Shown: in pieces, positions 36,345 to 41,268 of the stretch
Layout: each line of letters begins with the position of its first letter
How positions within the stretch are numbered: position 1 is the stretch's first letter
Assembly (NCBI GenBank): GCA_018268675.1
Contig: JAFDWB010000029.1
Span: forward strand, 1 to 42,207
From: Actinomycetota bacterium
GTDB lineage: Bacteria > Actinomycetota > Thermoleophilia > Solirubrobacterales > 70-9
Direction of reading: 5' to 3'
Length of the DNA stretch: 42,207 bases
The notes under the pieces: model-generated
Database searches by the model: none
What the model saw: only the letters and a program-made list of their open reading frames with translations
Told to the model about the DNA's origin: nothing
Program-made: the position numbers and the translations under genes

Positions 36345-36433
36345 GGGCCGGCTGGCGCCTCGCGGCGCGGCCATCCCCCTCGTGCTTTGGGCAGTTATGA
36401 CGGGGATGGCCGCGCCTTGGTCTGCGCCGGCCC
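36345..36433. repeat. Three-storey hairpin, family A (copy 2)
   Basis: The outermost arms GGGCCGGC (36345-36352) and GCCGGCCC (36426-36433) enclose a 15-bp perfect stem (36364-36378 with 36402-36416, arms GGCGCGGCCATCCCC and complement) and a four-pair inner stem, TCGT/ATGA. The middle 53 bases align with the family A copies at 21083 and 36635. Differences in the stem are paired: GCCATC/GATGGC here against CCCGTC/GACGGG there. Confidence 0.75.
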
Positions 36434-36434
36434 G

Positions 36435-36481
36435 GTGCGTTCGCAGTTGGCCACAACAGTTGTAGATAAGTGCGAACGCAC
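36435..36481. repeat. Hairpin, family B (copy 2)
   Basis: Arms GTGCGTTCGCA (36435-36445) and TGCGAACGCAC (36471-36481) pair over 11 bp. An inner ACAA/TTGT step around CAG (36453-36463) forms the upper stem. Its reverse complement aligns with the copies at 36495 and 9394 (GTGCGTTCGCACTT opening, 47 bases in all). Confidence 0.75.
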
Positions 36482-36494
36482 TGGCCAGGCTCGG

Positions 36495-36541
36495 GTGCGT
36501 TCGCACTTTTCGTCGCTATCCGACGATTACTGCGAACTCAT
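36495..36541. repeat. Hairpin, family B (copy 3)
   Basis: GTTCGCA (36499-36505) pairs with TGCGAAC (36531-36537), with a mismatch then further pairs outside. The inner stem CGTCG (36511-36515) and CGACG (36521-36525) encloses CTATC. Compared with the copy at 9393 (CCGCG/CGCGG around CTATT), the two inner-stem strands have changed together while the loop is kept. Confidence 0.75.
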
Positions 36542-36558
36542 CGGGGGTCGTCCCGTTG

Positions 36559-36599
36559 CGTGGTGCGAAATCCTCGGTATCCGAGGAGAAGGAACCACG
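36559..36599. repeat. Two-storey hairpin, family C (copy 2)
   Basis: Outer arms CGTGGT (36559-36564) and ACCACG (36594-36599); inner arms TCCTCGG (36571-36577) and CCGAGGA (36581-36587) close a TAT loop. It aligns with the copy at 15984-16034 through CGTGGT, GAAA and AACCACGG. A separate 14-bp perfect palindrome, GAACTCCGGAGTTC, follows at 36601-36614. Confidence 0.7.
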
Positions 36600-36634
36600 G
36601 GAACTCCGGAGTTCTCCGGTCCGGCGCAGGCCGA

Positions 36635-36687
36635 GGCGCGCCCGTCGCCCTCATAACCAGCCGAAGCATGAGGGGGACGGGCGCGCC
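36635..36687. repeat. Two-storey hairpin, family A (copy 3)
   Basis: Arms GGCGCGCCCGTC (36635-36646) and GACGGGCGCGCC (36676-36687) pair over 12 bp; after one mismatch CCCTCAT (36648-36654) and ATGAGGG (36668-36674) continue the stem to a 13-base loop. Read on the minus strand it is nearly identical to the copy at 21083-21136, including the loop core CGGCTGGT. Confidence 0.75.
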
Positions 36688-36722
36688 GACGGGCGGCAGC
36701 CGGCAAGCGCCCCGCCCTACCC

Positions 36723-39620: not shown

Positions 39621-40271
39621 TCAGGCGCTCGCCGGGCTCTCGCCCTCGTCGACCGGCTCGGCACTGTCGGGGGCGGGCGGCTCGCCGGGCGTCCAGCCGT
39701 CCGGGGCCGCCTCGAAGGCGGCCATGCCGACGATCAGGGCGGTCGGCGGCTCGCCGTTCGCCTCCATCCGCCGCCGGCAGAGCTCGTGGATCGCCTCGAG
39801 CCGGTTCGTCACCGCGTCGAAGACCGCCGCGACTTCCGCCCAGCCCGTCGCGTCCACCGACATCGGCATCCAGTTGAGCGTGGTGTCGTCGCGGGCGTCC
39901 ATGGTGCCCGCCTCGAGCGCGTCGGCGGCGCGGTCGAAGAAGGTGCCGAGGGAGGCGCCGCTGACCGCGTCGCGCAGGGACTTCGGCACTTTGCGCCAGT
40001 CCTGGTGGCCGATATAGGAGCGCGGCCGGGCGCGGAAGTAGTGCTCGACCGCGCCGCGACGACGCGCCGTCGCGACCTGTTCGATACAGCCGCATTTCTC
40101 CAGCACCCGCACGTGGTAGGCGACGTTGCCGAGCGGCGCCGAGAGCATCTCGGTCAGTTCGCTGGGGCTCGCCTGGCGGCGCTGCACGACTTCGAGGATC
40201 TTCACCCGGAGCGGGTGGCCGAGCGCCCGCACCAGGCGCTGGTCGATGCGGTTCGGTCGGCGACGATTCAT
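39621..40271 (-). CDS. ArsR-type winged-helix regulator, paralogue 1
   Basis: This 216-residue protein has an N-terminal ArsR-like winged helix, RLVRALGHPLRVKILEVVQRRQASPSELTEMLSAPLGNVAYHVRVLEKCGCIEQVATARRRGAVEHYFRARPRSYIG (about residues 13-90), and a helical C-terminal domain of about 110 residues containing PMSVDATGWAEVAAVFDAVTNRLEAIHELCRRRM. The same C-terminal block (PMVVDAEGWEEIAAVIQRATAELFEVEARVAER) occurs in the second regulator at 40654, so they are paralogues. The ATG at 40271 is chosen because the helix-turn-helix follows directly. Regulatory targets are unknown. A 19-codon gene lies 155 bases upstream on the same strand. Confidence 0.85.
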   Translation of the reverse strand: MNRRRPNRIDQRLVRALGHPLRVKILEVVQRRQASPSELTEMLSAPLGNVAYHVRVLEKCGCIEQVATARRRGAVEHYFRARPRSYIGHQDWRKVPKSLRDAVSGASLGTFFDRAADALEAGTMDARDDTTLNWMPMSVDATGWAEVAAVFDAVTNRLEAIHELCRRRMEANGEPPTALIVGMAAFEAAPDGWTPGEPPAPDSAEPVDEGESPASA

Positions 40272-40365
40272 TGATCGGGCAGTTTTGCGTAGGTACGCCG
40301 GTGTTGACCGGACAATCGCTCGTTTGAGTAGAACAATTCGACTAATCGGCCTGCGCCCGCCAAAC

Positions 40366-40398
40366 GGGGCGACGCCCACGGGATGCGGGCGCCGCCCC
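40366..40398 (-). terminator. Hairpin terminator after the small peptide gene
   Basis: GGGGCGaCGCCC (40366-40377) pairs with GGGCGcCGCCCC (40387-40398) with one internal mismatch and a 9-base loop. On the minus strand it stands 28 bases beyond the stop of the small peptide gene and before the regulator promoter, suggesting that the peptide gene is its own transcription unit. A smaller hairpin CCGGT-GTTG-ACCGG lies at 40298-40311. Confidence 0.55.
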
Positions 40399-40426
40399 GG
40401 ACCCCAGGCCTTGCGGCTTCGGGACG

Positions 40427-40486
40427 CTAGTTCGCCTTCGCGATGCTGAGCGCGGGAACGACCGCCTCGGTCTGCTCGACCTTCAT
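40427..40486 (-). CDS. Putative 19-residue peptide
   Basis: An ATG at 40484-40486 is preceded seven bases upstream by AAGGAGGTGA (40491-40500 in the + orientation TCACCTCCTT), a near-perfect match to the 16S anti-Shine-Dalgarno sequence and the best such site in the window. The frame of 19 codons, ending in TAG at 40427-40429, reads MKVEQTEAVVPALSIAKAN. There is no signal peptide or Cys. A 7-bp stem CGATCCC-TCCT-GGGATCG (40508-40525) precedes the ribosome-binding site, a terminator-like hairpin follows at 40366-40398, and a palindrome lies upstream at 40544-40557. It stands between two paralogous regulator genes. It could be a signalling, leader or precursor peptide; the gene itself is inferred, not proven. 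Confidence 0.55.
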   Translation of the reverse strand: MKVEQTEAVVPALSIAKAN

Positions 40487-40543
40487 CTCTTCACCTCCTT
40501 CCCTGCTCGATCCCTCCTGGGATCGGCGGGAAGTTGGATGGCG

Positions 40544-40557
40544 TCTGAGCACTCAGA
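40544..40557. promoter_or_regulatory. Palindrome between the peptide gene and the second regulator
   Basis: TCTGAG-CA-CTCAGA is a perfect 14-bp palindrome in the divergent gap. It is placed where a regulator could control both the peptide gene and the rightward gene. A T-rich element, TTTAAT (40610-40615), is a possible -10 for the second regulator gene. Apart from the peptide gene, its hairpins and these sites, the 382-base gap shows nothing else. Confidence 0.45.
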
Positions 40558-40653
40558 TCAGATTTGGCATGTTTCCGTCGCACCACGCGGCATCACGGCG
40601 CGATCGGCTTTAATTCGGGCGGGTTGCAAGCTCAGTTTTTTTTGGGGGATTGT

Positions 40654-41268
40654 TTGGGAACCACTCCGACCAACGACGACCGCGCGGCGGCGATTCCGGA
40701 TTTCGTCAGCCCGCGGCTCGCGGCAGCGATGTCGCACCCGACGCGCGTGCACGCGATGAACCTGCTGCTCGAACGCACGGCCTCGCCCCGACAGGTCGCC
40801 GGCGCGATCGACGAGCCGCTCAACAACGTCACCTACCACCTCAACCAGCTGCGCAAGCTCGGCTGCATCGAGCTGGTGCGCACCGAGCGCGCCCACGGCG
40901 GGCGCGTGGTCGAGCACTTCTACCGGGCGACGCAGCGCGTCTACTTCGACGAGGAGGCCTGGGAGGCCCTCGACGAGAAGCAGCGGCTCGGCGTGATCGG
41001 CGTCATCCTGCGGATCATGTCCCAGGACATCGCGGCGGCGATGGCCTCCGGCACCTTCTTCGCCGGGGACGGCGCCAACGTCTCCCGCGTGCCGATGGTC
41101 GTCGACGCGGAGGGATGGGAGGAAATCGCCGCCGTGATCCAGCGCGCGACCGCGGAGCTCTTCGAGGTCGAGGCAAGGGTCGCCGAGCGCGGTGCCGCGG
41201 CCGCGGACATCCACGCCAAAGTGGAGATGCTCCAGTTCCGCTCGCCGCCGCCGGCCTCAGCCGGCTAG
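40654..41268 (+). CDS. ArsR-type winged-helix regulator, paralogue 2
   Basis: This protein of about 204 residues has a winged helix, RLAAAMSHPTRVHAMNLLLERTASPRQVAGAIDEPLNNVTYHLNQLRKLGCIELVRTERAHGGRVVEHFYRATQRVYF, followed by a helical C-terminal domain with PMVVDAEGWEEIAAVIQRATAELFEVEARVAER, shared with the regulator at 39621. The TTG at 40654 is chosen because GGGGGA (40644-40649) is just before it. An upstream TTG at 40564 would put a run of eight T (40636-40643) inside the coding sequence. The 3' end overlaps the next convergent gene by four bases. Confidence 0.83.
   Translation: MGTTPTNDDRAAAIPDFVSPRLAAAMSHPTRVHAMNLLLERTASPRQVAGAIDEPLNNVTYHLNQLRKLGCIELVRTERAHGGRVVEHFYRATQRVYFDEEAWEALDEKQRLGVIGVILRIMSQDIAAAMASGTFFAGDGANVSRVPMVVDAEGWEEIAAVIQRATAELFEVEARVAERGAAAADIHAKVEMLQFRSPPPASAG

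Follow-up and report, generated by a model that had tools for sequence, protein, structure and literature searches.

What is a 19-codon reading frame doing between two paralogous regulator genes, and is it a gene at all? The question arises at positions 40,272–40,653 of a 42,207-nucleotide stretch (the window) from contig JAFDWB010000029.1 of assembly GCA_018268675.1, an Actinomycetota bacterium of the order Solirubrobacterales, where a sequence-only reading had proposed that the encoded peptide might be the ligand or target of an ArsR-like protein, or else a leader peptide. Comparison with related genomes confirms the frame as a real gene. We consider it probable that this gene and its relatives encode precursors of ribosomally synthesized and post-translationally modified peptides (RiPPs), matured by one shared enzyme combining a RiPP recognition element with a ThiF domain (RRE-ThiF) and a methyltransferase, and paired with ArsR-like regulators, most likely for signaling. 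The elements concerned are as follows:

40427–40486, minus strand: gene for a 19-amino-acid peptide, MKVEQTEAVVPALSIAKAN, read as an open reading frame (ORF), with orthologs at loci L010, L011, L012, L013, and L015 and about 75 family members.
40491–40500, minus strand: perfect Shine–Dalgarno (SD) site of the peptide gene, AAGGAGGTGA, read from the sequence.
40654–41268, plus strand: ArsR2, the cognate divergent two-domain regulator (winged helix-turn-helix, wHTH, plus helical C-terminal region) with a TTG start, assigned from HTH_20/HTH_5 matches below the cut-off, a family alignment, a tree, and an AlphaFold model.
39621–40271, minus strand: ArsR1, a paralogous regulator downstream of the peptide gene and member of a peptide-less clade, assigned from an HTH family match and a tree.

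The peptide gene starts with an ATG at 40486–40484 (minus strand) and runs through 19 codons to a TAG stop at 40429–40427 (ATG AAG GTC GAG CAG ACC GAG GCG GTC GTT CCC GCG CTC AGC ATC GCG AAG GCG AAC TAG). The ATG is preceded by GGAAGGAGGTGAAGAG; the spacing from the SD site AAGGAGGTGA to the ATG is 4 nt, and from its GGAGG core 7 nt. ArsR1 lies downstream on the same strand, and ArsR2 is transcribed divergently. Orthologous intergenic regions were recovered by DNA search of 61 related genomes and yielded the peptides MKIHETAQIVPATSVQKPN, MNIVKTPQIVPATSVQKPN, MRIQETAAIIPADSVAKGG, MKINETAAAMPADSVAKGG, and MRIEESAPVIPVTGIAKGT. Within the genus, the orthologous loci keep the in-frame 19-codon ORF, the strong SD site, and the motif, which argues against a chance ORF; much of the surrounding intergenic DNA drifts. 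Stops or frameshifts in the orthologous peptide frames, which the sequence-only reading had named as the observation to look for, were sought and none were seen. Its description of a 19-codon frame behind an SD site at ideal spacing is thus borne out by the sequence and by the orthologs, and a strong SD site (GGAGGTGA or GGGGGTGA) is retained by most members of the wider peptide family.

The window locus is one of several in its genome. Six further loci carry a paralogous regulator with a peptide gene (VRMGTSQGRTAPAAITKGS, VKITVSEQSIPSTSVSKSV, MEIAVTAMPALPSVQISKAG, MELCDGLRVIPHRGISKGN, MTLSETTVAVPAGSITKGQ, and MTVTCASATLPAASVSKAN), giving seven peptide-paired two-domain wHTH regulators with the window locus included; for one more full-length regulator (C32) a contig end truncates the upstream sequence, and ArsR1 brings the number to nine. 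The 12 genomes of the genus hold about 100 regulators of this kind, with more across the taxonomic family. For the 138 regulators from related Solirubrobacterales with enough upstream DNA, the best divergent ORF of 15–24 residues was scored against an N- and C-terminal position profile, and a divergently transcribed peptide gene was found at 76. The scores are bimodal, with 75 regulators at 9 or above, one at 5.9, and 62 below zero. Because some of these data also seeded the profile, which was thus trained within the family, the controls matter. A score of 9 was reached by co-directional ORFs at 6 of the 138 regulators, all of them ArsR1–peptide–ArsR2 cassettes, and divergent upstream ORFs were found at 60 of 119 regulators versus 0 of 119 in the downstream control on either strand. 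A regulator-independent DNA pattern (SD site, start, CCN, AAG, stop) was run on 399 genomes of the class. Its matches in the window's genus and one sister genus that end in a true stop number 27, and by coordinate comparison all 27 are divergent to a family regulator; the pattern recovers only about one-third of known peptide members. The conservation among orthologs, the bimodal scores, the empty downstream control, and the uniformly divergent pattern matches together led us to reject a chance ORF.

The 76 peptides share the consensus M-K-I-x7-P-A-x-S-I/V-x-K-G-N/S, and 61 of them are exactly 19 residues long. Lys occupies position -3 in all 76 (this being partly a selection criterion), Pro position -9 in 59, and Ile, Val, or Thr position -5 in 68. 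All three stop codons are represented, and the median start-to-start distance between peptide and regulator genes is 171 nt. The sequence-only reading had suggested seeking small frames in relatives and conservation at the residue level, and both were found: Ser at position -6 is encoded by AGC codons in 8 cases and by TCN codons in 28, and the last nine codons have a pN/pS of 0.53 versus 0.86 for the others, values that come from diverged sequences. Regulator homologs were sought in viral contigs and plasmids and none were found; a phage or plasmid origin was accordingly set aside. No account of the peptide family was met in the literature searched, outside which most subscription papers lay, and these tiny genes, present several to a genome and each arranged divergently beside a regulator of its own, apparently constitute an undescribed family. 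A family of this kind escapes gene callers, and the frame in the window was itself unannotated.

To which of the two flanking regulators does the peptide belong? As the sequence-only reading had stated, ArsR1 and ArsR2 are both wHTH (HTH_20/HTH_5) proteins with a common C-terminal region, here of about 110 residues; for Pfam families PF12840/PF01022, ArsR1 scores above the cut-off and ArsR2 below. The TTG start of ArsR2, common to several of its orthologs, follows a GGGGG/GGAGG site (window 40637–40656; GGAGG in relatives) with a conserved T run before it. The ArsR1–peptide–ArsR2 cassette is conserved in the genus (present in G003, G004, G006, G008, and G011). On a quick tree of the 138 regulator sequences, peptide presence requires 12 changes versus 45.6 after shuffling, with none of 500 shuffles as low. 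ArsR1 and its orthologs form one clade inside a peptide-less group, and ArsR2 and its orthologs fall in a peptide-bearing group. Because ArsR1 belongs to a peptide-less clade, the partner is taken to be ArsR2, and the functional unit, as judged from the tree, is the peptide and ArsR2 only. The earlier proposal of a ligand or target of an ArsR-like protein therefore stays alive for ArsR2, and the part that centered the role on both regulators does not hold.

Some further properties of the regulators were recorded. The nearest solved folds are of ArsR type; the AlphaFold model of ArsR2 has a mean predicted local distance difference test score of 63.9 and is confident only in the wHTH, so no fold is claimed for its C-terminal region. 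Homologs found with alignment A5 come from uncultured Solirubrobacterales and other actinobacterial metagenome-assembled genomes. A conserved clade of the regulator family that lacks any peptide gene (L094, L095, L099, L102, L104, L107, L109, and L110) is represented by roughly a single copy in each genome of the genus. A tandem-fused regulator of about 424 amino acids occurs in G008 and G009 (L212:5239–6510 and L213:5542–6819), with its own divergent peptide gene and an adjoining major facilitator superfamily (MFS) transporter.

Turning to the enzymes, the class-wide DNA pattern also matched two loci outside the pair arrangement, VVIKRTDKPVIPALSVTKLS (G310) and MKLRKVEKPIAPRPSFQKGF (G036), where the peptide is flanked by a class I methyltransferase and an N-terminally extended ThiF-domain protein. 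One strong RRE-ThiF copy each is present in 16 of 50 family genomes, namely all 12 of the genus (the G011 copy being divided by an assembly gap), G019, G031, G036, and G269; in the remaining 34 the best match, if any, is a general ThiF/MoeB-like protein near 1e-20. The methyltransferase occurs in exactly the same 16 genomes, which are also those with peptides. This co-occurrence has a Fisher p of 2e-13, among genomes that share lineages, and peptide absence from the 34 enzyme-free genomes rests on the absence of the regulator and on a pattern that finds about one-third of members. In G026 and G014, regulator homologs are present and no peptide, RRE-ThiF, or such methyltransferase was found. 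In the window's genome the enzymes are encoded in trans (RRE-ThiF at G000:C55:149294–150358, methyltransferase at G000:C27:20392–21147). Elsewhere they lie closer: some 1 kb separates RRE-ThiF from a peptide–regulator pair in G019 and G031, and five genomes (G001, G002, G004, G008, and G009) have a methyltransferase copy no more than about 1 kb from such a pair. A survey of the phylum for RRE-ThiF at E ≤1e-50 gave one weak match outside the class, with no such peptide beside it.

A class search with the enzyme alignment uncovered further genera and families of Solirubrobacterales in which a methyltransferase gene is followed by the peptide gene and then by RRE-ThiF (L210, L211, L249, L276, L277, and others). 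The peptides of these compact clusters include MPSIKKLDTRVIPALSVTKSA (G047), MLKIVKIEEETLPVASLVKNG (G250), MLNIETIDRPIIPDASIWKGG (G406), MIKITPIEEPTMPVAGYVKQG (G300), and, within the window's own family, MKPQEIKKPATPRSAIQKGG (G269). In several of the clusters these genes run divergently from those for an extracytoplasmic function (ECF) sigma factor, an SBP_bac_5 oligopeptide-binding protein, and a member of the same regulator family. Regulator family, peptide, and enzymes thus go together in adjacent arrangements as well; in the window's genus the precursors look scattered and increased in number, every one accompanied by a regulator copy. At L276:5908–7016, L277:6515–7707, and L249:8893–9980 the regulator gene overlaps the end of the ECF sigma factor gene, and sigma factor and regulator therefore seem to form one unit there. 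A series of tandem paralogous small secreted proteins also stands beside the RiPP-like cluster of G269 (L249:10132–14799).

The enzyme is a relative of PaaA and MccB. Its ThiF domain matches PF00899 (E 1.3e-46), and the motif GxGGLGxW, the residues R173/K186, and four Cys in two CxxC pairs are invariant. The spacing of R173/K186 equals that of PaaA R174/K187; an Arg and a Lys 13 apart matter in PaaA and EnfB (PMC12250964). The enzyme profile aligns with PaaA over positions 7–369, its full length, and with MccB over the ThiF domain, and an N-terminal part of about 90 residues stands at the position of the PaaA/MccB RRE. The methyltransferase has daptide_MTase as its best NCBIfam match, far below the cut-off.

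Since co-occurrence and the compact clusters tie the peptide to the RRE-ThiF enzyme and methyltransferase, it is most likely a RiPP precursor rather than a plain pheromone gene, and we regard precursor status of the 19-mer as well supported. The same evidence bears on a rival explanation, in line with the sequence-only reading, that the unmodified intracellular peptide is itself the ligand of the divergent regulator and that the enzymes co-occur through shared ancestry alone. Such a ligand would fit the one-to-one divergent pairing and the observation that peptide distance tracks the C-terminal region of the regulator (partial r 0.24, permutation p <0.001; for the HTH, 0.06, p 0.15). We nevertheless judge it improbable, given that the same motif recurs between methyltransferase and RRE-ThiF outside the genus, that the two enzymes have identical patterns of presence, and that G026 has regulators with neither enzyme nor peptide found.

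Together, these elements may form the following pathway. Transcription of the peptide gene would begin within the intergenic region that it has in common with ArsR2, ending probably at a hairpin 3′ of the gene. A single RRE-ThiF adenylating enzyme, encoded elsewhere, would recognize the 19-mer and activate a carboxylate, which could be that of the C terminus beside the invariant Lys at -3, and the class I methyltransferase (G000:C27) would add a methyl or a larger group derived from S-adenosylmethionine (SAM). At least seven peptide variants could be made in the window's genome, each encoded by a separate, dispersed gene that is paired with a dedicated ArsR-like regulator. The modified peptide, either intracellular or exported and re-imported, would bind to the divergent regulator at its C-terminal region, altering how firmly that protein holds an operator in the intergenic region. 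We infer a signaling role for the modified peptides, as well as their translation in vivo, modification chemistry, export, and action as ligands. A broader form of this scheme, in which one RRE-ThiF and one methyltransferase mature up to a dozen 19-residue peptides, each with its own back-to-back ArsR-like receptor in a many-channel signaling system, is advanced tentatively.

The peptides could instead be natural products (an antibiotic, toxin, or other secreted product), with the divergent regulators only controlling production. The RRE-ThiF relatives MccB and PaaA make antibiotics (PMC12250964), an MFS transporter adjoins the two tandem-regulator loci, and an MMPL transporter lies near RRE-ThiF in the window's genome. 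Signaling is preferred, and a natural product considered rather unlikely, because there are many dispersed precursor variants per cell, each with its own regulator, with no shared immunity gene, because an oligopeptide-binding protein, part of an importer, accompanies several compact clusters, and because peptide distance tracks, weakly, the regulator C-terminal region.

Several observations weigh against RiPP precursors that act as signals. All evidence is computational, and nearly all genomes are metagenome assemblies. The related genomes are not independent and offer some three or four independent contrasts (the genus itself; G026 versus G019/G031; and G036/G269 versus their congeners). In the window's genus the enzyme is not adjacent to a precursor, so that the link there is by co-occurrence, and no importer lies beside the peptide–regulator pairs of that genus. 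The putative RRE alone has no significant Pfam match (PaaA-like_N, E 0.2). The C-terminal residue varies across the peptides, which leaves no single C-terminal chemistry evident for all of them, and the Mantel signal between peptide and regulator C-terminal region is weak and may reflect faster C-terminal evolution.

The DNA around the peptide gene bears on its expression and on the remaining proposal, a leader peptide. The sequence-only reading had reported hairpins on both sides and an upstream palindrome, all of which are present, the 3′ hairpin having no T-run:

40365–40399, minus strand: strong GC-rich, terminator-like hairpin 3′ of the peptide gene, without a T-run, read from the sequence.
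40508–40525, no strand assigned: small inverted repeat CGATCCC-TCCT-GGGATCG in the 5′ region of the peptide gene, not conserved in all orthologs.
40544–40557, no strand assigned: imperfect palindrome TCTGAG-CA-CTCAGA, candidate operator in the divergent promoter region, of putative function.

In the 60 nt past the stop codon, the 76 family peptide genes have a mean folding energy of -31.6 kcal/mol versus -22.6 in GC-matched windows at the same loci (p 1e-18). The inverted repeat of the palindrome region persists, with changes, in orthologous intergenic regions; the longest intergenic palindrome arms barely exceed those of shuffled sequences (5.6 versus 5.1), and the operators are therefore candidates only. 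A promoter/terminator consensus scan gave no match, and an Rfam scan of the region gave sub-threshold matches only. Farther away, at window 36347–36704, a cluster of inverted repeats (89-nt arms, 80% complementary, plus several shorter ones) resembles a palindromic repeat element.

As a leader peptide or attenuator, the 19-mer would control the downstream ArsR1, with which it is co-directional, 150 nt upstream, and with a hairpin between. This gene order is limited to the ArsR1 clade (6 loci), and the motif recurs in unrelated contexts. Because nearly all members are divergent from their regulator, are followed by a strong hairpin, and have no shared downstream gene, the leader peptide is abandoned as highly improbable.

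The proposed RiPP system would be a design of one enzyme and many precursors, with a dedicated regulator per precursor. If the peptides are signals, ArsR-type proteins would join the peptide receptors and Actinomycetota would gain a multiplexed peptide code written in RiPPs, a new kind of regulation; if they are products, they would constitute a new ThiF-type RiPP group from an order that is mostly uncultured.

Among known systems, the closest are the RiPPs made by ThiF-like adenylyltransferases (TLATs), for which a review lists microcin C, pantocin A, GRC, and enterofaecin (PMC12250964). With MccB, PaaA, GrcB, and EnfB the present system shares the RRE-ThiF-like architecture, the conserved spacing of the ATP-binding Arg and Lys, a short precursor, and, in some genomes, compact clusters with a SAM-dependent enzyme. 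It differs in that one enzyme is matched by several scattered precursors, every one with a divergent ArsR-like regulator to itself, and in that strong enzyme copies occur only in Solirubrobacterales among the genomes searched. Assignment to the microcin C type was rejected on a C-terminal Asn in only 17 of the 76 peptides, and to the pantocin A type on the lack of a conserved central Glu-Glu in the 76. The RRNPP systems (Rap/Rgg/PlcR) likewise place a small peptide gene beside a cytosolic regulator gene, with several paralogous pairs per genome, and the oligopeptide-binding protein of several compact clusters adds to the likeness; here, however, the regulator is an ArsR-like wHTH and not a tetratricopeptide repeat (TPR) protein, and modifying enzymes are present. 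The Pfam matches of the regulators comprise HTH families only, with no TPR peptide receptor domain, and no secretion signal was apparent on reading the peptides, which are mostly 18–20 residues without a long hydrophobic stretch. ArsR/SmtB metalloregulators have the ArsR-type wHTH in common with these proteins, whereas conserved metal-binding Cys are lacking here, no Cys being invariant or nearly invariant in regulator alignment A4. ArsR-type proteins with a C-terminal extension (PH1932, 1uly; Kfla_6221, 4g6q; Phr, 2p4w) resemble ArsR2 in the wHTH and overall arrangement; a partner peptide gene, and a C-terminal region specific to this regulator family, set the present proteins apart. Finally, the GRC radical SAM RiPPs (RaS-RiPPs) of streptococci also have ThiF-type RiPP clusters beside quorum-sensing regulators (PMC12250964), with radical SAM enzymes and quorum-sensing operons where the Solirubrobacterales have a methyltransferase and an ArsR-like regulator.
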